A stretch of 52,676 bases of DNA from a virus: positions 1 to 52,676 of the IMG/VR virus record IMGVR_UViG_3300009551_000057; one strand, written 5' to 3'. Numbering within the stretch: position 1 is the stretch's first letter; every line of letters starts with the position of its first letter. Shown piece by piece: positions 6,383-27,693 of this stretch. The position numbers and the translations under genes are program-made. Under the pieces are notes generated by a model. The model worked only from the letters and a program-made list of their open reading frames with translations. It had not been told where the DNA came from and made no database searches.

Positions 6383-6455
6383 GGGCCTTGTGCCCGTCGA
6401 TCGCCAGAGACATCCTGTCTCTGGAGTCGCTGGACCCAAGGACAGGAGCACTGCG
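6383..6455 (+). promoter_or_regulatory. Hairpin leader D
   Basis: GGGC-CTTGT-GCCC (6383-6395), then GTCGAT, then a perfect 9-bp stem CCAGAGACA/TGTCTCTGG (6404-6412 with 6416-6424), then a CTGGACCCAAGGACAGGAG flank. Same order and flanks as B and C with a third unrelated stem sequence. Confidence 0.7.
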
Positions 6456-6476
6456 ATGGACAGGAGCACTGCGATG
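6441..6476 (+). repeat. Perfect 18-base duplication of ribosome site and start codon
   Basis: GACAGGAGCACTGCGATG occurs twice in direct succession (6441-6458 and 6459-6476). Each unit carries its own GGAG and ATG, and because 18 is a multiple of three both ATGs are in the same frame. Confidence 0.9.
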
Positions 6477-7925
6477 TCAGACACAGAGGACGATTTTTTC
6501 AGCATGATCGAGGTCGATGCCCCGGCGCCGGCCGGAGGTATGCTGGCGGCACCCCGCCAGATCCCGGCGCCAGCACCTTCGCCGGCGACTTCGCCAGCAC
6601 CTTCGCCGCTGGCCGCGATCGCGGCCGAGTCGAGCGCCAACGCGGCCGCGACCGGCATCGGATCGCGGGCCGGTGGCCAGCTGCGCGCGGTGGGGTTCGC
6701 GAACGCGGACGGCTACATCCAGGCCCTCCGCAACGGCGTTCCCACCGCCACCTACGTGGCCTACCTCGAGACGCTGCGCGCCCGCTTCGGCATGACGACT
6801 GCCGATCTGCAGGCGCTCTCGCTCCCCCCGCCCATGGCCGAGGTAGATCTCCCCGTGGGCGCCGGCATCACCCACACGCCCACCGGGCCGAGCGTGTTCG
6901 ACCGCCCGGCGGCAGAGCGCAAGTTCACCGTCGGGGCCCAGCCGACGCAGACCGTGGAGCGGGTTGTCCAGCTGTCGCCCACCCAGCTCGTCGCCGGCGC
7001 GGCGGCCGAGGGCTCGCACGCCATCGTGGCGTGGGAGGGCACGTCGGGCCTCACCCTCGGCACCCTGCGCGCGGCGCTCGATCGCATTGGGCTCGGCGAT
7101 TGGGCCCCCTCGTCGCCGTCCGCCCGCGCTCAGGCCGGCGTCGCGCTGCAGGCCCTGAGCGCCAAGGGCTTCGTGGTCCGGGCCGCCCGACGGTCCCATC
7201 TTCCCGGACTGGATACCAACCACCACGTGTGGTCGGTCGGACGGGTGCATCACCTGGTCTCCAACGAAGTCGGTGCCGAGTTTGGCAAGCTCAACGCCCG
7301 ATTCACGCTCGCTGGCGACAAGCTGTCCTACGTCGGCGACGCGTCCATCGGCGCGCCGGTCGTCGCCGCTTTCAGCGCGGCGCTCGCCGCCGAGACGCTC
7401 AAGTCCAGCGACGTGACCGGATGGCTGGGGCGCAGCCTGTCGATGCGCTGTCGCGCCGTGCGGTTCGGCGCCATGGGCTGGCTGGTCCCGTCGCGCCACG
7501 TCGCGACCGCCCGGAAGCTCGTCGAGGCAACCCGCTCAACGGGGTTCGGCTCGGGCTGGGTCACCGGCCTGCCCGTTGCGACGTCCGACGATCTGCGGGC
7601 TGGCATCGCCGGCGCGCTGCGCGAGGAAGCGAGCGGCCTACTCGCGCGACTGGCGACCGAGAACGCGGCGGCCGAGAGCGGCAAGATCGGCGAGCGTCGC
7701 GCCCAGACGTTCCTGCGCGACATGCGCGAGGTCGGCGCTCGCGCCTTGGCGTACGCCGCGATCCTGGGCGACGAGCTCGTCGCCTCGGTGCGTTCCGACG
7801 TGCGCACCGCCATCGCCCAGCTTGAGAGCTATCTCGGCGACGACTACACCGGCATCGGCGCGCGCTTTGACGCGGTCTGGCAGGAGATCGCCGACGACGT
7901 CAAGCGCACGGGGGATGTGCTGTAG
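6456..7925 (+). CDS. Large early protein of unknown function
   Basis: 489 residues from the first duplicated ATG or 483 from the second at 6474. Residues about 1-65 are acidic then Pro/Ala/Ser-rich (disordered linker). The rest is an alpha/beta domain including TSGLTLGTLRAALDRIGL and AMGWLVPSRHVATARKLVEA, ending in long helices (residues about 370-485). I do not recognise it securely. It is the largest early gene apart from the lipoprotein and has its own leader. Confidence 0.75.
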   Translation: MDRSTAMSDTEDDFFSMIEVDAPAPAGGMLAAPRQIPAPAPSPATSPAPSPLAAIAAESSANAAATGIGSRAGGQLRAVGFANADGYIQALRNGVPTATYVAYLETLRARFGMTTADLQALSLPPPMAEVDLPVGAGITHTPTGPSVFDRPAAERKFTVGAQPTQTVERVVQLSPTQLVAGAAAEGSHAIVAWEGTSGLTLGTLRAALDRIGLGDWAPSSPSARAQAGVALQALSAKGFVVRAARRSHLPGLDTNHHVWSVGRVHHLVSNEVGAEFGKLNARFTLAGDKLSYVGDASIGAPVVAAFSAALAAETLKSSDVTGWLGRSLSMRCRAVRFGAMGWLVPSRHVATARKLVEATRSTGFGSGWVTGLPVATSDDLRAGIAGALREEASGLLARLATENAAAESGKIGERRAQTFLRDMREVGARALAYAAILGDELVASVRSDVRTAIAQLESYLGDDYTGIGARFDAVWQEIADDVKRTGDVL

Positions 7926-12463: not shown

Positions 12464-14701
12464 ATGAGTCGACTGAATGCAGGATGGATGTTGGTGCTGG
12501 CGGCCGCCGCGTGCGGTACCACCAGCGCAGATGTGGGAGATGATGATGCGGCGATCTCCGATCGCCCGGCGGAGGTATCGAATCCGCTATGCGACTGGCC
12601 GCAGCAGTTCGGCGTGCCGAGCCACACCGGCCGGGCGTGCCCGGCGCAGCATGGCCTGACGGTGGTTGCGGCCCTCGTGTCCGACGAGGACGCGCAGGCC
12701 GAGAACGCGTTCAACGGCTTCTTATCGATCCACGAGGGCGCCGTGGTGACGTCTGGATCCTACGTCGTGATGCCGCACTCGCAGGGCTGGACGGATCCGG
12801 TGGAGATCACCGACCCGTCGACGAAGACGTACGACGTGCAGGTGTTCCGCTGGGATCCGAGCGTCGACGCGCCGAACCGCGCGCTCGACTACTTGTACAC
12901 GCTCCCCGCGAGCTGGGAGCCCGTGGACCGGGCGGTCCAGAGCTTCGGCTACCTCACCAACGGCTACGTGCAGGTCTTCCAGCCCGTCGTGAGCGGCTCG
13001 CAGCTCTACGTGCCGGCCTCCTCGGGCCGCGTCGAGCGGCGCGATCTCGCGACCGGCGCACTGATCGCGACGATCGATCCGTTCGCCGGTACCGCGTTCT
13101 CCGGCGATCCCAAGCTCACGCAGATGGGTGCGCTGTCCATCAGCCCGAGCGGCAAGATCTACTACACCGCGCTCGCCCATCCGCTCGGCGTCAACCCGAA
13201 GGGTCGTGACGCGCGCGGCGCGTGGCTCGTCGAGGTGGACCCGACGACCAACACGGCGCGGCGCGCCGACTGGTCGCTCATCGCGAGCAAGACGCTCGGC
13301 ATTCCGACGTCGACGGACCAATGCCTCCGGCCGTTCTTCCTGTTCGGCCGCAAGCCGACGGGACCGGATGACCATTCGAACCGGTCGGCCTGCGGCGCTC
13401 AGCAGCCGGCGATGAATTCCCCCGTCGCCTTCGACGGCATCGGAAACATCGTCGCGCTCTCGTATGGCACGAGGGAAATCTCGGCGGCCTTCCTGATCCG
13501 CGTCAGCGCGGCGACGCTCGCTCCGATTCAGGCGTACGATTTGCGCGGCCGGATGCTCCATGGCTGCGGCGTCCGCCTGGCCTTCGACGAGCCCGATACC
13601 GACTGCGCGATCATCACCGCCAATGGCACGCGCAACGTCGGGTTCGACCCCGACCTCAACTCTCCGGTCGGGTTCCAGGCAATGGGATTGATGGATGGCA
13701 GCCCGACCGTGGCACCCAACGGCGACCTGGCCGTCTCGGGCTACGATTCGGGGTTCTCGTTTTTGGGCGGCTACGACAGCCGCGGCGGCACGATCTCGTT
13801 CACCGCGAGCGGGGCGCTGCGCGCCGTAAACTCTGTCTTTGGCTGGGAGGTCACCAACGCCGTGCAGGCCGCGCTCACGCCGGGCGGAGGGTTCACCTAC
13901 GTATCGGACAGCCAGCTCTACAGCGAGTTCGATCTCAGCATTGCGCGCTGGTCTCCGACCTTTGACGTCCTGTCTCAGGCGCGTCTCGACATCCAGCCCG
14001 GGCCGGCCATCGACTGGCTCGACACCCAGGTCGCCATCAACATCGATGGTAGCTACTGCGGCGTCAACGGGATGGGCGTCTTCGCATGCTTTGACGGCAC
14101 CGGGGCGCTCGTCGAATCCGTCGACCTGCTCGGCGCCGATGCGCTGCCATACAGCATCGAGACGCTCTCGAACCACATCTCGCGGGACCGTGCCGGCACG
14201 TACTACGTGAACTACGGCGGCATCATGTGGATCATCGCCGGCGGTGGCGGCGGCCGCGCCCACGCAACGCTCGCGCCCACCGTTGGCCAGGCGGCGCAGC
14301 ATGCGCTCGGTCGGGCCGCCAAGGCCGCGCGGGCTCGCTCGGATGCGCCGCCGGCGCTGGCGGAGCTCGACGTCCCCCGTTCCGATCTCGTCAGCATCCC
14401 CGACGAGCTACGCCTCGTCCGGCCGTCTTCGGTGTGCGGGATACCGACCAAATGCCAGCCCTACATCGCCATCGTCAACGGCAACGGCGAAATCGAGGTG
14501 AGCAAGGCGCCGCTGTCCGACGCTATTTGCGATGCCGCCTGCGGTTCGCTGGAAGGCCGATGCCCGGCGCCGAACACCCTCGGCGCCTACCTCAGCTGCT
14601 CCGACAAGTGCTTGACGCTGGGTGACTTCACCGCCACGTGCATCGCCAATTGCGTCAACAGCATCCGCACGTCCTGCCAGACCGGGAGCGGGAACCTGTG
14701 A
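12464..14701 (+). CDS. Large secreted lipoprotein, beta-propeller-like
   Basis: 745 residues. Residues 1-17 are a lipoprotein signal ending in LAAAAC, so the mature protein would be lipidated at Cys17. The following acidic linker (DVGDDDAAISDRP) is typical of surface lipoproteins. Residues about 100-600 contain repeated short strands (SGSQLYVPASSGRVERRDLA; APNGDLAVSGYDSG) that suggest a PQQ/WD-like beta-propeller. The last 100 residues are Cys-rich (CDAACGSLEGRC; CSDKCLTLGDF; CIANCVN), probably disulfide-bonded. No virion role is evident; it reads as host-surface cargo. Its stop overlaps the RiPP precursor start. Confidence 0.85.
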   Translation: MSRLNAGWMLVLAAAACGTTSADVGDDDAAISDRPAEVSNPLCDWPQQFGVPSHTGRACPAQHGLTVVAALVSDEDAQAENAFNGFLSIHEGAVVTSGSYVVMPHSQGWTDPVEITDPSTKTYDVQVFRWDPSVDAPNRALDYLYTLPASWEPVDRAVQSFGYLTNGYVQVFQPVVSGSQLYVPASSGRVERRDLATGALIATIDPFAGTAFSGDPKLTQMGALSISPSGKIYYTALAHPLGVNPKGRDARGAWLVEVDPTTNTARRADWSLIASKTLGIPTSTDQCLRPFFLFGRKPTGPDDHSNRSACGAQQPAMNSPVAFDGIGNIVALSYGTREISAAFLIRVSAATLAPIQAYDLRGRMLHGCGVRLAFDEPDTDCAIITANGTRNVGFDPDLNSPVGFQAMGLMDGSPTVAPNGDLAVSGYDSGFSFLGGYDSRGGTISFTASGALRAVNSVFGWEVTNAVQAALTPGGGFTYVSDSQLYSEFDLSIARWSPTFDVLSQARLDIQPGPAIDWLDTQVAINIDGSYCGVNGMGVFACFDGTGALVESVDLLGADALPYSIETLSNHISRDRAGTYYVNYGGIMWIIAGGGGGRAHATLAPTVGQAAQHALGRAAKAARARSDAPPALAELDVPRSDLVSIPDELRLVRPSSVCGIPTKCQPYIAIVNGNGEIEVSKAPLSDAICDAACGSLEGRCPAPNTLGAYLSCSDKCLTLGDFTATCIANCVNSIRTSCQTGSGNL

Positions 14702-14925
14702 AGAAGACGCTAAGTCTCCGCAGGGAGGTTATTCGGTCGATGACCGCGCGCGAGCTCAAGATGGCTGCTGGCGGGACGGTCCACGACTCCGACCAGCCGG
14801 CGTGCGAGCTCAGCGACACCAGCGTTCCGAGCTTCGCGACTCCGGCGTGCGGCACCGCGTTCACATGCGGAATCCACTCGCTTTGTGGATGCAACGGCGA
14901 CTCTCAGCTTTGCCATCTGCCGTAG
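14698..14925 (+). CDS. Lanthipeptide-like RiPP precursor peptide
   Basis: 75 residues, GTG start overlapping the lipoprotein stop (GTGA). The N-terminus KKTLSLRREVIRSMTARELK followed by MAAGG matches the leader style of class I lanthipeptide and double-Gly precursors (L-x-L-K/R-x-E ... L-T-x-x-E-L ... GG). The predicted core, residues 27-75, holds 6 Cys (36, 51, 57, 63, 65, 72) and 11 Ser/Thr, suitable for thioether rings or disulfides. No LanB, LanC, LanM, protease or transporter gene is visible in the window, so any modification would depend on the host. Alternative: a small exported Cys-rich protein. Confidence 0.7.
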   Translation: MKKTLSLRREVIRSMTARELKMAAGGTVHDSDQPACELSDTSVPSFATPACGTAFTCGIHSLCGCNGDSQLCHLP

Positions 14926-14982: not shown

Positions 14983-15320
14983 GTGAGATCACCCCCGACA
15001 TGGCAAACACCACCCATGTCGGCAAGGCTCGGATCTGCAACTTCATCGTCACCCGCAGCGACGGCAGCGTCGACGCGACCACGCCGGCCGCCGTCGGCGT
15101 CGGGAATCCCAACAACCTGAGGGCCACCATGAACCCGGACAACCCGCGGCAGTTCGCCGTCGTCGCCCTGGCCGAGACCCCGGGCATCAACACCACCGTG
15201 ACCTGCAACGGGCACTCGGCGTCGCTGCTGGTCACGGTGGTGGCCGCCGAGGGTCCCGACCTCGCCGGCGTGTCGATCGGATCGCCCGGCGACGAGGTCG
15301 ACCCGCCGAGCTGGGCCTAG
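14973..15320 (+). CDS. Hypothetical small beta-rich protein
   Basis: 115 residues from the ATG at 14973 (GGAG 12 bases upstream), or 106 from an ATG at 15000; the start is uncertain. It alternates strands (RICNFIVTRSDGSVDATTPA; FAVVALAET; ASLLVTVVAAE) and could be an Ig-like fold. It ends convergently with the exonuclease gene, the two sharing one CTAG as stop codons. Function unknown. Confidence 0.65.
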   Translation: MSGREITPDMANTTHVGKARICNFIVTRSDGSVDATTPAAVGVGNPNNLRATMNPDNPRQFAVVALAETPGINTTVTCNGHSASLLVTVVAAEGPDLAGVSIGSPGDEVDPPSWA

Positions 15321-16567
15321 GTCCGCTTCGGCTTGAACGGACGCACGACCTCTTCTGTCGTCGTCGTGAGTCCGCCGGCGTCCTCGATCTCCTTGAGTAG
15401 GAGGTCCAGGGCGCCGGTTTTGTTTTTGGTCGTGAACTTCTCCTTGGTCCCCTTGTGGTCTGCCACCAGGCGCTCGATCGCCGCGATGGGGACCTTCACC
15501 TTTGCCGCCGCGCGCGCCTTCTGGGCGCCATAGCGCGCCTCCAGGACCTGAAGCGCGACTGCGCCGTCGACGTCACGCTCGTTGCGCAGCGTCCGCCCCA
15601 GCACCCGGCCGTCGGGGAGCGGGATGTCCTCGTGCCAGGCCGCCCTGGAGATCTCGGCCTTCATCTCGGACAGCATGTCCGAGATGCGCTCGATGGCCAG
15701 GTACGCCACGCCGGCGCGCTCGACGGAGAGGACCGGCCCCGACGACCTCACCAGCTCGATGTCGTTGCTGATCGACAGCCCCAGCTTGACGAGCTCGGTC
15801 GGCAGCTCCCGGATGAGACCCACCGTACCGGGACACGATCGCCGCGCGGAGCAGTAGGCGCAGTGATCTCCCACCACGGTCGGGACCTCGAGCCCATTCG
15901 CCCATTGCATGGTGTACTGCTCAACCAGGTCGAAGACCCGCTCGAACTGGTCGGCGGCGTCGGCGAGGTCCCAGCCGTCGAGCGTGTCGCGCACGGCGTA
16001 ATGCGTCCCGTCTTCGCGAAGATGGAACAGCTCGGCCACAACGGAGTCAGCCTTGGTCAGCGAGGCGACGCAGAGCGCCCCCATGAGCGTCTGGCCAAAC
16101 TGCCCCGGCCGAGGGTAGCGCGTGCGGCCAAACTTCCAGTCCCCGACGTACCCCTTGATCCCCTGGGCGGCCGCGGCCTCGTGCCCGATCAGATCGTACG
16201 TGCCAGCGATCTCGTCGTCCGTCGGCGGATTGGGCAGCGTGTCGTAGTCGCGGTGTCCGAGGTTGCGGCCCAGCTCGCGCGCGGTCCGCGTCCTCACGTT
16301 CCAGGCGACCGCCACCTCGGTGGATAGGTGCGTCGGCAAATCGTCCAGAGGGAGCACCGCGCAGTAGCGGCGGAACTCCTCGGGGACCAACGCGAGCGCG
16401 TAGTCAACGCCCTCGATGCCGATGTGCTCGAGGAACTGGTGGATCGCCTTGCCGCGGTTCCGCACCCATTCGGAGCGCTGATCCGCGTTGAGGTCGACGA
16501 CGCCCGGGAGCACGGCGCTCGCCGGACACTTCCACACGCGGTGCCACTTCGATGCGGTCGGCTTCAC
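15317..16567 (-). CDS. PD-(D/E)XK exonuclease (Cas4/AddB-like)
   Basis: 416 residues, GTG start in the previous stop. The N-terminal WHRVWKCPASAVLPG resembles phage DUF2800-type nucleases. His43 (GKAIHQFLE), Asp125 (GTYDLIG) and Asp143-x-Lys145 (VGDWKFG) give the PD-(D/E)XK active site. CAYCSARRSC near residue 235 plus Cys14 fits the iron-sulfur or zinc staple of Cas4-like nucleases. Paired with the RecT-like gene in the same operon, it should supply 3' single strands for annealing-type recombination or genome replication. Confidence 0.8.
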   Translation of the reverse strand: MKPTASKWHRVWKCPASAVLPGVVDLNADQRSEWVRNRGKAIHQFLEHIGIEGVDYALALVPEEFRRYCAVLPLDDLPTHLSTEVAVAWNVRTRTARELGRNLGHRDYDTLPNPPTDDEIAGTYDLIGHEAAAAQGIKGYVGDWKFGRTRYPRPGQFGQTLMGALCVASLTKADSVVAELFHLREDGTHYAVRDTLDGWDLADAADQFERVFDLVEQYTMQWANGLEVPTVVGDHCAYCSARRSCPGTVGLIRELPTELVKLGLSISNDIELVRSSGPVLSVERAGVAYLAIERISDMLSEMKAEISRAAWHEDIPLPDGRVLGRTLRNERDVDGAVALQVLEARYGAQKARAAAKVKVPIAAIERLVADHKGTKEKFTTKNKTGALDLLLKEIEDAGGLTTTTEEVVRPFKPKRT

Positions 16568-16956
16568 CGTGGCCCCCTCTCCCCCATCACCGGCTCCGAC
16601 AGATCGAATTGCGGTGGTTCCACCCTGAGCATTCCGGTCAGGTTGAAAACCATGAAGTTTCTGGATTTCTCCAGTCCAGATCGCATCTCGATCTCCATGC
16701 CGCTAGAGATCCGCGGTCCGCACAGAATGATGCCATCACAGTAGCGGATCACCGTGATGGCATCATCAATGCCGGCCTGGCGATGCGCCGGGTTGCTGTC
16801 GTCATCGCCGGACAGGATGCTCGCGATCCAGGGCGCGATCACGGTGTGGTGCGGCCACGTCTTGCGGGCCCACGCCAGCCAGCGCAGCGCGCGGGCCACG
16901 TTCTCAGTGACGTCGCCCGCCACGGGGTGTGCGAGGTAGAACAGCGGCCGGGTCAT
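16564..16956 (-). CDS. DUF4406 / nucleoside deoxyribosyltransferase-like protein
   Basis: 130 residues. The N-terminus FYLAHPVAGD, the middle HRQAGIDDAI and IRYCDGIILCGPRISSGMEI follow the Rossmann-like fold of DUF4406 and nucleoside 2-deoxyribosyltransferases, where S/P-x-G-M contacts the sugar. Such phage proteins may salvage nucleotides or NAD-type metabolites. ATGA/GTGA overlaps place it inside the recombination operon. Confidence 0.75.
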   Translation of the reverse strand: MTRPLFYLAHPVAGDVTENVARALRWLAWARKTWPHHTVIAPWIASILSGDDDSNPAHRQAGIDDAITVIRYCDGIILCGPRISSGMEIEMRSGLEKSRNFMVFNLTGMLRVEPPQFDLSEPVMGERGPR

Positions 16957-17165
16957 GCGTCACCCATGAGATCCTCAGCATCGACCGCTCGGGCTAGCTC
17001 GCAAGCCCGCTTGATCTCGCCATCGGTGGATCGAGACAGGATGGTCTCCAGAGTTTGGTCCATCGTCGCCAGTCCCATGACCGACCTGGCGGCCTCTAGC
17101 TTGACGAGCGTCGATTCGCGCAGCGCGATGCGCCGGTAGCGCGGGCCGCGGTTCCCGCGGCTCAC
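16953..17165 (-). CDS. Possible ribbon-helix-helix protein
   Basis: 70 residues with GTG start overlapping the RecT gene stop. RYRRIALRESTLVKLEAARS followed by MGLATMDQTLETIL fits the strand-helix-helix pattern of RHH repressors. Frames extending further upstream would overlap the RecT gene and are unlikely. It may autoregulate this operon or modulate recombination; low-to-moderate certainty. Confidence 0.55.
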   Translation of the reverse strand: MSRGNRGPRYRRIALRESTLVKLEAARSVMGLATMDQTLETILSRSTDGEIKRACELARAVDAEDLMGDA

Positions 17166-18382
17166 GGGAGCTCGGCCTTCCGCTTGGCGAAGATCTCCCG
17201 CATCGAGGCCGCTTCCTGCGGGCTGGCGTGCCGCTTCGACCAGGCGACCCAGATGGGCTTGCTGTCGTCCAGGTGGGCCTGAGTCCGGCAGGCCGCCGCC
17301 CACGCCTTGAACGCGTCGAAGGACTTAGCCTCTGGGATGACCGGCGCGCGCACCTCCTCAGGCGCCGCCTCCTCGCCGAAGTCTTCGACGGGATCCGGCG
17401 CCGGGGCAGAACTGGAGGTCGCCGTAGTCGTAGAGCCGGGAGAACCCGACGAGGTCGACGTAGGCGCGGCCGTCGAAGAATCGTCGGGGGTCGAAGGGCG
17501 GGCGGCCGCCGCAGCAGCCTCGGCCGCGAGGCGCTCGTCCATCTTGCGGCGGGCCTCGTCGATGGACGCCTGAAGGCGATCCTCCTTCTGCTGCATCGTC
17601 TCGTGCGGCCTTTCAGCCGGCGGCGGCGTGCGCGGCGGACGCGTCACCCGCTGGTGATCGGTGACGCGCGGCTGCTGATCCCGTCGAGGCGTCGCGATGC
17701 TCTCGGGGGCCGGCTTGGTCTCGGCCTTGGGCGCCGGAGCCTCCGGATCCACCGGAGCAGCGGGAGGCGGGACCGAGGAGAACGCCGGCTTGTCGGTGTA
17801 CTCCGCGTCGATGAAGTCCCCATCATACGCCTCCTCGACGGACACGAGACCGGAGACGATATCCGGCCAGAGGATGCGGCAGATCTGCCCGGACCCGCGG
17901 GCGACCAGCATGTCCGCCGGGTGGTGCACCCAGTTGTGCTTGCTCATCAGCCCGGCCGCCCGGGCCCGCTCGATCGTCCAGGTGATCTCCAGCTGAGCAC
18001 GGCCGCGGCGCTTGCCGCGCCACGTCGCCCGCTGCGGCGTGGTCTCGATGAGATCCAGGACCTCGCACAGCGGCGACCGGAGGATGATCGCCCGCTGCCC
18101 CTCGGCCGATAGCCGAGGAATGCCCTCGACGATGTGATAGAGGCGGAGCGACTGCATCGGGGCGAGCCCTAGCTCGGCGCCCGCCATGATCACTACGGCC
18201 ATGTTGACCGGCTGCCCCCGATACGCCGTGGGAATGATGCCGGATGTGGCCAGCGCCCGCGTCAGATCCATCACCTCGCCGAACGTCCTGGGCACGATCG
18301 GCATGGGGTCATGCGCACCCGCCTCCATGCGGCGGATGGCGGTCTCCGGGTTGTACGCAACGATCTCTTTGCCTTCAGCCAT
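17162..18382 (-). CDS. RecT-like single-strand annealing protein
   Basis: 406 residues. Residues 35-185 carry RecT family features: AVVIMAGAELGLAPMQSLRL, then YHIVEGIPRLSAEGQRAIIL, the IERARAAGL region and HPADMLVARGSGQICRILWP followed by a VSVEEA acidic end. Residues about 190-330 are Pro/Ala/Ser/Thr-rich (disordered), then a C-terminal helical domain (FKAWAAACRTQAHLDDSKPI). It anneals complementary single strands with the exonuclease encoded at the end of the operon. First gene of the leftward recombination operon. Confidence 0.85.
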   Translation of the reverse strand: MAEGKEIVAYNPETAIRRMEAGAHDPMPIVPRTFGEVMDLTRALATSGIIPTAYRGQPVNMAVVIMAGAELGLAPMQSLRLYHIVEGIPRLSAEGQRAIILRSPLCEVLDLIETTPQRATWRGKRRGRAQLEITWTIERARAAGLMSKHNWVHHPADMLVARGSGQICRILWPDIVSGLVSVEEAYDGDFIDAEYTDKPAFSSVPPPAAPVDPEAPAPKAETKPAPESIATPRRDQQPRVTDHQRVTRPPRTPPPAERPHETMQQKEDRLQASIDEARRKMDERLAAEAAAAAARPSTPDDSSTAAPTSTSSGSPGSTTTATSSSAPAPDPVEDFGEEAAPEEVRAPVIPEAKSFDAFKAWAAACRTQAHLDDSKPIWVAWSKRHASPQEAASMREIFAKRKAELP

Positions 18383-21887: not shown

Positions 21888-22736
21888 GTGTCTGCGGACT
21901 TCGCAATCGACGGACCGGCATACATCTCGTTTTCCGGCGGTCGGACGTCGGGCTACATGCTGCATCGCATTCTCGTTGCTCACGGCGGTAGGCTGCCGCG
22001 CGACGTTCACGTTTTGTTCGCCAACACCGGCGACGAGATGCCAGAGACCCTTGATTTCGTACGCGATTGCTCTGAGCGCTGGGAAGTCCCGATCAACTGG
22101 GTCGAATATTACCTGACGCCGGACGACGAGCCGTCCTACGAGATCGTCTCCTACGATTCAGCGTCGCGCGATGGCACTCCGTTCGATCGCTACTTGCAGC
22201 ACGTCGAGCGCCTCACGGCAGCCAAGGGTAACGAGCCCTACCTGCCGGGGCCCGGCAACAGGTTCTGCACGACCGAGTTGAAGATCCGCGTGATGAAGAA
22301 GTGGATGCTCGCCTTCGGATACGAGCACTGGACGAACATCGTTGGAATTCGCGCTGATGAGCCGAAGCGCTGGCGCAAACTCAACCGCAACCCGCCAGAG
22401 CGTTGGGAGGTCGATCTGCCCCTTGTGGACGCTGGCGTGTCCGTTGACGACGTGCGCGAGTTCTGGGGTCGGCAGAAATTCGACCTCGGTATCGCCGGTG
22501 ACTGGGAGGGTAACTGCGACGCGTGCCATCTCAAAATGCCATGGAAGGTCGCGCGTGTGTTTCGCGATCACCCAGAGCGTGCGCAGAAGTGGCTCGATCG
22601 CGAGGCGCGTGCAGGCAAGACGTTTCGCCCTCGCGGCCCGAGCATCGCGCAGCTCGTCGCGCTCTCGCAGGAACCAGAGCCCTCGGTCGTCGAGAGCGAT
22701 CAATTCGAGATCCAGTGCACCGGATGTACGGATTAG
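21888..22736 (+). CDS. PAPS-reductase-like PP-loop protein
   Basis: 282 residues, GTG start with GGAG 7 bases upstream. The PP-loop is SFSGGRTSGYM (residues about 14-24), then FANTGDEMPETLDFV and a C-terminal NCDACHLKMPWKV with further Cys (RFCTTEL). This is the N-type ATP pyrophosphatase fold of PAPS reductases and DndC/CysH-like enzymes found in many phages. The true substrate (sulfur transfer, nucleotide or DNA modification) cannot be told from sequence. No Dnd partners are present. Confidence 0.85.
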   Translation: MSADFAIDGPAYISFSGGRTSGYMLHRILVAHGGRLPRDVHVLFANTGDEMPETLDFVRDCSERWEVPINWVEYYLTPDDEPSYEIVSYDSASRDGTPFDRYLQHVERLTAAKGNEPYLPGPGNRFCTTELKIRVMKKWMLAFGYEHWTNIVGIRADEPKRWRKLNRNPPERWEVDLPLVDAGVSVDDVREFWGRQKFDLGIAGDWEGNCDACHLKMPWKVARVFRDHPERAQKWLDREARAGKTFRPRGPSIAQLVALSQEPEPSVVESDQFEIQCTGCTD

Positions 22737-26955: not shown

Positions 26956-27693
26956 CTATCGACGGTAGCGCAGGTACACGTCACCGACATGCAGGACCTG
27001 GCTGGCTCCGGTCGCGGCGAGCTGGATGTTGACCCAGACCACGGCGTTCTCCGGGATGGCGACGTCACCGTCCGTGGTCAGCTCGAACGCGGACCAGGCC
27101 GCCGCCTGGTTGCTGACCCCGCTGCCTTCCACGGTGTTCGTGCCGGCGATGAGAGATCCACCGCCGACGTCGCCGAGCGGGTAGTAGCCGATCCCCGCGG
27201 ACCAGTCGACGACGCCGTCGCCGTACACCTCGATGGCCGCGCCGACCACGACCTGATCGCTGTCGACGTTGATGCGCCCCCAAAAGTTGTTCAGCTTGTT
27301 GCCCGCGTCGGTCGTGAACCTCCAGACCGGCACGAGGCCGGAGCCTGGCGCCTGGACCAGGACGGGCGGCGTGACGCCGGAGGTCGAGCCGATATCCACC
27401 CAGCACGCTGGGAACGATTGGCGGAGCCGCTCGGTCTGCCGATCTCCGACATTCATGTCCTGCAACCTGTTGAGGAGCTCCGGCGGGACGGGGTCGCCGA
27501 GAGCGATGGTGAGGTCTCGGGATTCTGGCAATGCCATGTCGCAGCCTTTCTTGCGCGGCGGGGCCGCGTCGATCGCCTGAGCGTCGGGGTTGGCGTCACG
27601 CTGGACGCCGGCGTCCAGCGTGACGGATGCGTCCGGCCGCTCGCCCACCGGGGCCGAGCAGGCGACGAAAATCAGAGCGAGCAGCGCCTTCAT
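26956..27693 (-). CDS. Lipoprotein encoded at the end of the tail operon
   Basis: 245 residues. MKALLALIFVAC gives a short lipoprotein signal (Cys12, -3 residue is Phe, which is less usual). Residues 13-48 are a PDA-rich linker (VGERPDASVTLDAGVQRDAN), as in Myxococcota lipoproteins. The rest is a beta-rich domain ending VLHVGDVYLRYRR. Its ATG overlaps the stop of the gp48-like gene, so it is co-translated with baseplate genes. Either a virion/fibre protein that only mimics a signal, or a lipoprotein made late that blocks receptors, as T5 Llp does. Confidence 0.75.
   Translation of the reverse strand: MKALLALIFVACSAPVGERPDASVTLDAGVQRDANPDAQAIDAAPPRKKGCDMALPESRDLTIALGDPVPPELLNRLQDMNVGDRQTERLRQSFPACWVDIGSTSGVTPPVLVQAPGSGLVPVWRFTTDAGNKLNNFWGRINVDSDQVVVGAAIEVYGDGVVDWSAGIGYYPLGDVGGGSLIAGTNTVEGSGVSNQAAAWSAFELTTDGDVAIPENAVVWVNIQLAATGASQVLHVGDVYLRYRR
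27594..27625. repeat. 32-base perfect palindrome in the lipoprotein gene
   Basis: Bases 27594-27609 are exactly reverse complementary to 27610-27625 with no loop; the centre is GCCGGC and the outer ends CGTCACG and CGTGACG. It encodes SVTLDAGVQRDA, the linker just after the lipobox. Perfect dyads this long within a coding region are rare by chance. Confidence 0.9.

Follow-up and report, generated by a model that had tools for sequence, protein, structure and literature searches.

We describe a gene for a 75-residue peptide in the IMG/VR virus record IMGVR_UViG_3300009551_000057, the whole of which (52,676 bases, one record) is the window analyzed here. The peptide is probably an orphan class I lanthipeptide precursor of the type whose LxLxKx5L leader ends in a double glycine (GG). 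Its gene is cargo of a myophage, and the peptide is, as we suspect, modified by the LanB and LanC enzymes of the host and exported by its C39 system. A first-pass annotation had taken the gene for an orphan lanthipeptide-like precursor of a ribosomally synthesized and post-translationally modified peptide (RiPP) on a phage, a proposal supported by the link of its leader family to LanB, LanC and C39 genes in myxobacteria. The host, and the expression, modification, export and benefit of the peptide, are the parts of this interpretation that we infer from sequence.

A candidate lanthipeptide precursor

The gene lies on the plus strand at positions 14698 to 14925, stop codon included, and runs from a GTG start (read as Met) to a TAG stop. 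Its product is made up of a leader, MKKTLSLRREVIRSMTARELKMAAGG, followed by a core, TVHDSDQPACELSDTSVPSFATPACGTAFTCGIHSLCGCNGDSQLCHLP. The leader, defined by a profile alignment and by a DNA motif, spans residues 1-26 (14698 to 14775, plus strand) and has the layout L-x-L-x-R-x5-M followed by A-A-G-G, its distinctive residues being L5-S-L7-R-R-E10, M15-T-x-x-E-L20 and G25-G26. The core, residues 27-75 (49 amino acids; 14776 to 14922, plus strand), contains six Cys (at 36, 51, 57, 63, 65 and 72) and 11 Ser/Thr (six Ser and five Thr), and its net charge from a count of K, R, D and E is -5. With these cysteines and hydroxyl residues the core has what a class I precursor needs to form (methyl)lanthionine. 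The reading frame, leader motifs, GG position and core composition given in the first-pass annotation were thus correct to the letter.

GC content by codon position (0.57, 0.55 and 0.79, in a phage of 67% GC) supports the frame as coding. Two overlapping alternative open reading frames (ORFs) lack a coding-type pattern, and a minus-strand ORF at 14655-14894 has a codon-position bias similar to that of the precursor gene. The GTG start also overlaps the TGA stop of an upstream lipoprotein gene by 4 bp (GTGA). Overlaps of this style are typical of translational coupling, which suggests that translation of the precursor may be coupled to that of the lipoprotein. A chance ORF or decayed fragment could be suspected from the GTG start and a core lacking homologues, but the coding-type third-position GC, the overlap and a leader score far above that of shuffled sequence make this explanation very improbable.

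We are highly confident that the leader belongs to the class I lanthipeptide leader family. The LxLxKx5L motif that marks the class is present with conservative changes (Arg for Lys and Met for Leu), and so is the GG at the leader end (G25-G26). NF038153 (lant_leader_L1a), the NCBIfam model for the class I lanthipeptide leader L1a, aligns with residues 1-26 over its full length (model positions 1-32 of 32) at 15.4 bits (E 0.015), under its curated cut-off of 22 bits; the RiPP leader search put forward in the first-pass annotation therefore gave a match along the entire model with a score short of the threshold. A second profile, built from 20 leaders of myxobacteria of the Kofleriaceae order, scored the precursor at 19.0 bits (E 2.8e-5 among 604 window ORFs). 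The next window ORF, setting aside an N-terminally extended version of the precursor itself, reached 4.4 bits, and the best among 159,633 ORFs from 200 Markov-shuffled windows reached 14.2 bits. A DNA pattern for the leader motif matched the window once, at the leader (14710-14774), with no match expected from shuffling. When the 75-residue peptide was used as the query, only noise-level matches were returned from IMG/VR, phages and 379 Myxococcota; leaders of this kind are beyond the sensitivity of searches with one sequence.

Among RiPP models, lant_leader_L1a was the sole match of the window peptide, and TIGR04149, a model of leaders of the radical S-adenosylmethionine (rSAM) type to which the first-pass annotation had also pointed, did not report the peptide at E<=1. 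This result argues against a different kind of RiPP with a similar leader, such as an rSAM-modified GG peptide. Some host leaders match both models and one phage precursor type described below (type a) scores on TIGR04149 only, at 16.8 bits and under the cut-off, but we consider this interpretation quite improbable for the window peptide.

Leaders and machinery in Kofleriaceae-order myxobacteria

Myxobacterial genomes were reached with an MglA probe that served no other purpose. The survey of the likely host clade covered 35 genomes from the order of a Kofleriaceae metagenome-assembled genome, searched with NF038153 at E<=10; an earlier threshold of E<=0.01 applied to 13 myxobacterial genomes matched nothing and was uninformative. 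Matches were found in 23 of the 35 genomes and exceeded the cut-off in 10, with about 15 or more such leaders in the richest genome. The host leaders mostly follow the form M-K-K-x(n)-K-L-x-L-x-R-E-T-V-R-x-L-x4-L-x-x-V-A-G-G and precede short cores, nearly all of which contain Cys. Most end in GG, with two ending in GA, and GG is present in all phage leaders found, where the search pattern fixes it. The residues whose conservation the first-pass annotation had made a test of its proposal (L-x-L, [K/R]-E, L/M and GG) are largely kept in the host and phage relatives that we found.

LanB (PF04738) was detected in 19 of the 35 genomes and LanC (PF05147) in 15. LanC is present in every one of the 10 genomes whose leaders exceed the cut-off, compared with 5 of the other 25 (one-sided Fisher test, 1.6e-5, kinship ignored). 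A LanB or LanC gene lies within 10 kb of 15 of the 36 above-cut-off leaders, and at one locus (L168) leaders occur together with LanC, a LanB complete in both its N and C domains, and a C39 peptidase-ABC exporter that has an HlyD-like partner. For the other 21 leaders neither enzyme lies within 10 kb on their contigs, which are fragmentary, and orphan precursors therefore appear to be common in this clade. One genome (G405) has 25 NF038153 matches spread over its contigs, more than a dozen of them above the cut-off.

The association with LanC bears on a simpler possibility, namely that the GG leader serves a C39 exporter alone and that the core is unmodified or disulfide-bonded, yielding a secreted, bacteriocin-like peptide. 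The C39 exporter family recognizes GG leaders in general, and a GG end and six cysteines are what such a peptide would have. We nevertheless judge this unlikely, given that the leader holds the class I LxLx[K/R]x5[L/M] element beyond the GG and that its family is tied to the presence of LanC.

Across 379 Myxococcota species, the leader profile found clear full-length leaders in two genomes only (G270 and G314, the latter from the Kofleriaceae order), and most of its other matches cover part of the profile inside long ORFs. Within the phylum the leader family thus looks concentrated in this order. That concentration is the main, though indirect, pointer to the host, for which a Kofleriaceae-type myxobacterium with numerous dispersed precursors is the probable candidate; the host could also lie outside the Myxococcota, since leaders of this type occur in Bacteroidetes too.

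Three of the surveyed genomes (G405, G392 and G415) have many scattered lanthipeptide-type leaders each, with up to 10 LanC genes (G405). Ser/Thr kinase and/or WD40 proteins adjoin many host GG-leader precursors (loci L100, L101, L102, L103, L121, L122, L135, L168 and L173), an adjacency that may simply reflect how common such genes are there. Separately, a sequence titled Comamonas sp. KCTC 72670 (BNCN01000011.1; L014) encodes a 99% Myxococcus-like MglA, and this genome is probably mislabelled or contaminated.

Solitary precursors on other viral contigs

IMG/VR was scanned with the DNA motif pattern and one variant; the pattern fixes the motif and leaves start, core and stop free, and among the fetched loci it matches leaders only. 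Ten further contigs carry such precursors, which fall into six further types: four of the contigs share type a, two share type b, and the other four each have a type of their own. In all ten the precursor is encoded by a short ORF that begins with Met and contains basic residues, the motif and GG; a core with Cys follows in all but one, an ORF cut by the end of the data. The type a core is FIPDPTTAATDGNNGCPSEATGCHTGLSGCGSC or near to it. Between pairs of type a genes there are 9-15 synonymous codon changes against 1-6 non-synonymous ones, and the cores are nearly invariant. Because synonymous changes outnumber non-synonymous ones, type a looks like a real gene under purifying selection.

The contigs carry phage genes: on L194 and L200 a major head gene is close to the type a precursor, which on L196 shares its contig with a Mu F-like gene, and other precursor contigs encode a portal (L198), a baseplate protein (L199) and a tape-measure-like protein (L202). 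On L197 (10070-11667, minus strand) the precursor starts about 10-20 bp past the end of a PDDEXK/DUF2800 nuclease gene with RecT alongside, and this nuclease and RecT are distant relatives of the genes that flank the window precursor. By these predicted genes, two different phages hold such a precursor at the same nuclease/RecT module. A Ser/Thr kinase-WD40 protein is followed directly by a GG-leader precursor on L195 (3551-7298; 1187 residues as called) and likewise on L199 (1-787), and the kinase of L195 shares 49-58% identity with those encoded at leader/LanC loci of Kofleriaceae-order genomes. The 234,567 bases of phage DNA covered here, some of it overlapping, yielded no LanB, LanC or C39-ABC exporter in a search that detected its positive controls.

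Two side observations concern these contigs. The arrangement on L195 and L199 resembles kinase/LanC/leader loci of Kofleriaceae-order genomes. In addition, L199 (12548-12627) has in common with L193, L194, L196 and L200 an element of some 75-80 bp, with 86-89% identity, which in the latter four sits just upstream of the type a precursor; the phage types that share it are otherwise different.

The recurrence of precursors in unrelated phages would also fit an arms race in which the phage peptide is a decoy, competing for the host LanB/LanC or exporter and so blunting an anti-phage lanthipeptide of the host. A solitary leader-bearing substrate would suffice for this purpose. Although it is the most interesting of the rival explanations, we think it has only a small chance of being correct. 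A decoy has no need of a core rich in Cys, Ser and Thr, yet such a core is kept in most phage types and that of type a is nearly invariant, and we know of no anti-phage lanthipeptide in myxobacteria. The precedent comes from Streptomyces, whose anti-phage lanthipeptides (reviewed in PMC12360287) likewise act in phage-host conflict but are encoded by the host in complete clusters, whereas here the precursor is on the phage.

The phage and the surroundings of the precursor

The window has genes for TerL, portal, major head, tail sheath, tape measure and baseplate proteins, RecT, primase, DnaB, RusA and a GH25 endolysin, and by this predicted gene content it is a contractile-tailed phage (myophage). 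A related phage (G001; 51,346 bases) is collinear with the window and spans the join of its two ends, so that both look circularly permuted and near-complete. At the matching place in G001 neither the lipoprotein nor the precursor had an identifiable relative. Both flanks are kept there, namely the nearest conserved gene on the left, for a 511-residue protein (6390 to 7925, plus strand; 45% identity), and a PDDEXK_1/DUF2800 nuclease on the right (15317 to 16567, minus strand; 39% identity to the G001 counterpart), and the lipoprotein-precursor pair is therefore phage cargo and not host flanking DNA. The RecT-like annealing protein of this flank is encoded at 17162 to 18382 (minus strand), and a 106-residue ORF with no Pfam match lies downstream of the precursor (15000 to 15320, plus strand).

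As the first-pass annotation had noted, no modification, protease or export gene is visible beside the precursor: Pfam on 61 ORFs and tblastn with host LanB, LanC and C39-ABC queries found no LanB, LanC, C39 peptidase or ABC exporter in the window. The pair of LanB and LanC genes nearby that makes a class I lanthipeptide cluster was hence not found in it.

The upstream gene (12464 to 14701, plus strand) encodes a predicted lipoprotein of 745 residues, counted from an inferred ATG, with a Cys-rich C-terminus. No relative of it was found in Pfam, NCBIfam, the PDB, phages, IMG/VR, GTDB contigs or 379 Myxococcota genomes. An AlphaFold model made without an alignment had a mean predicted local distance difference test score of 36, too low for the model to be of use. 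Matches to the metal-binding protein CueP (E 0.03-0.05) were far under the cut-off and were rejected as chance. Elsewhere in the window are a second predicted lipoprotein (26956-27693), weakly similar to proteins encoded at the corresponding position of the related phages G001 and G002, a PAPS-reductase-like protein (21888-22736), and a small protein resembling nucleoside 2-deoxyribosyltransferase/DUF7768 (16564-16956), whose assignment to this ORF is inferred from a pooled scan.

Discussion

If the gene is an orphan class I precursor served by its host, the phage would make the peptide in coupling with translation of the upstream lipoprotein gene. A host LanB would then recognize the leader and dehydrate Ser and Thr residues of the core, LanC would close thioether rings with the six cysteines, and a host C39 peptidase-ABC exporter would cleave after Gly26 and secrete the product. 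The phage could in this way add one peptide, for antagonism or signalling, to the pool of its host without carrying the enzymes. Three roles had been suggested in the first-pass annotation: the phage might supply a substrate for RiPP enzymes of the host, make an antimicrobial for its lysogen, or titrate host machinery. More broadly, phages of myxobacteria and their relatives may recurrently carry solitary lanthipeptide precursors as cargo, from which host LanB, LanC and C39 would make, in trans, phage-specified modified peptides that serve as weapons, signals or counter-defence, a generalization for which we see the case as evenly balanced.

Several observations weigh against this interpretation. 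The motif Lys is Arg in the window leader (R8) and the last motif Leu is Met (M15); in host leaders Arg at the former place is common, but Met at the latter is not. The NF038153 score misses its cut-off, which we ascribe to a limit of the model because host precursors that adjoin LanB or LanC, at 19.8, 16.2 and 11.3 bits, miss it too. The core has no convincing full-length homologue in IMG/VR, phages or the 379 Myxococcota. No integrase family was found by Pfam among the 61 ORFs or among the best 25 of 47 PHROGs families, and the phage may or may not form lysogens. Nor does the phage head protein point to a host: none of the 35 Kofleriaceae-order genomes contains a match to it, and its matches in 14 of the 379 Myxococcota are only about 24-33% identical. 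Finally, the further phage contigs are covered in part, and LanB or LanC could be present elsewhere on them.

The closest known systems are the class I precursors of Bacteroidetes, which have LxLxKx5L leaders, often with GG, and C39 proteases (PMC7268733). The window precursor shares with these (NF038153; PMC7268733) the leader layout, the GG cleavage site and a short core with Cys, Ser and Thr. It differs in the Arg and Met substitutions, in its sub-cut-off score and in its place on a phage, with no LanB, LanC or LanT found in the window. Prochlorosins and other precursors are encoded far from their synthetase (PMC7268733), and as in the case proposed here many substrates with a shared leader are modified in trans by few enzymes, but prochlorosins are class II, cyanobacterial and chromosomal, with Nif11-type leaders.

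Phages also carry complete pathways. Sublancin, for example, is carried on SPbeta. Phage-borne bacteriocin clusters have been surveyed by antiSMASH-based cluster detection (Dragos et al. 2021, as cited in PMC7616364 and PMC10452541), and like the window these are phage cargo for a ribosomal peptide product, whereas the precursor in the window stands alone, and no enzyme was found next to it. Solitary precursors would be missed by cluster-based surveys because no enzyme adjoins the gene, and in one large RiPP survey contigs of putative viral origin were discarded ahead of the analysis (PMC11118758). Our literature search, which covered few subscription journals, turned up no paper that describes a solitary lanthipeptide precursor carried by a phage. 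Phages with whole bacteriocin clusters are known, and recurrent solitary precursors look like a new form of such cargo.

Viruses may repeatedly borrow the peptide-making machinery of their hosts. If this is true, about 200 bp of phage DNA suffices to extend the products of a host peptide-modifying pathway, and phage traffic could be one origin of the orphan precursors that are dispersed over myxobacterial genomes. The specificity of trans-acting LanB enzymes would gain a ready test, and research on lanthipeptides in phage defence, itself a new field, would gain a player on the side of the phage.
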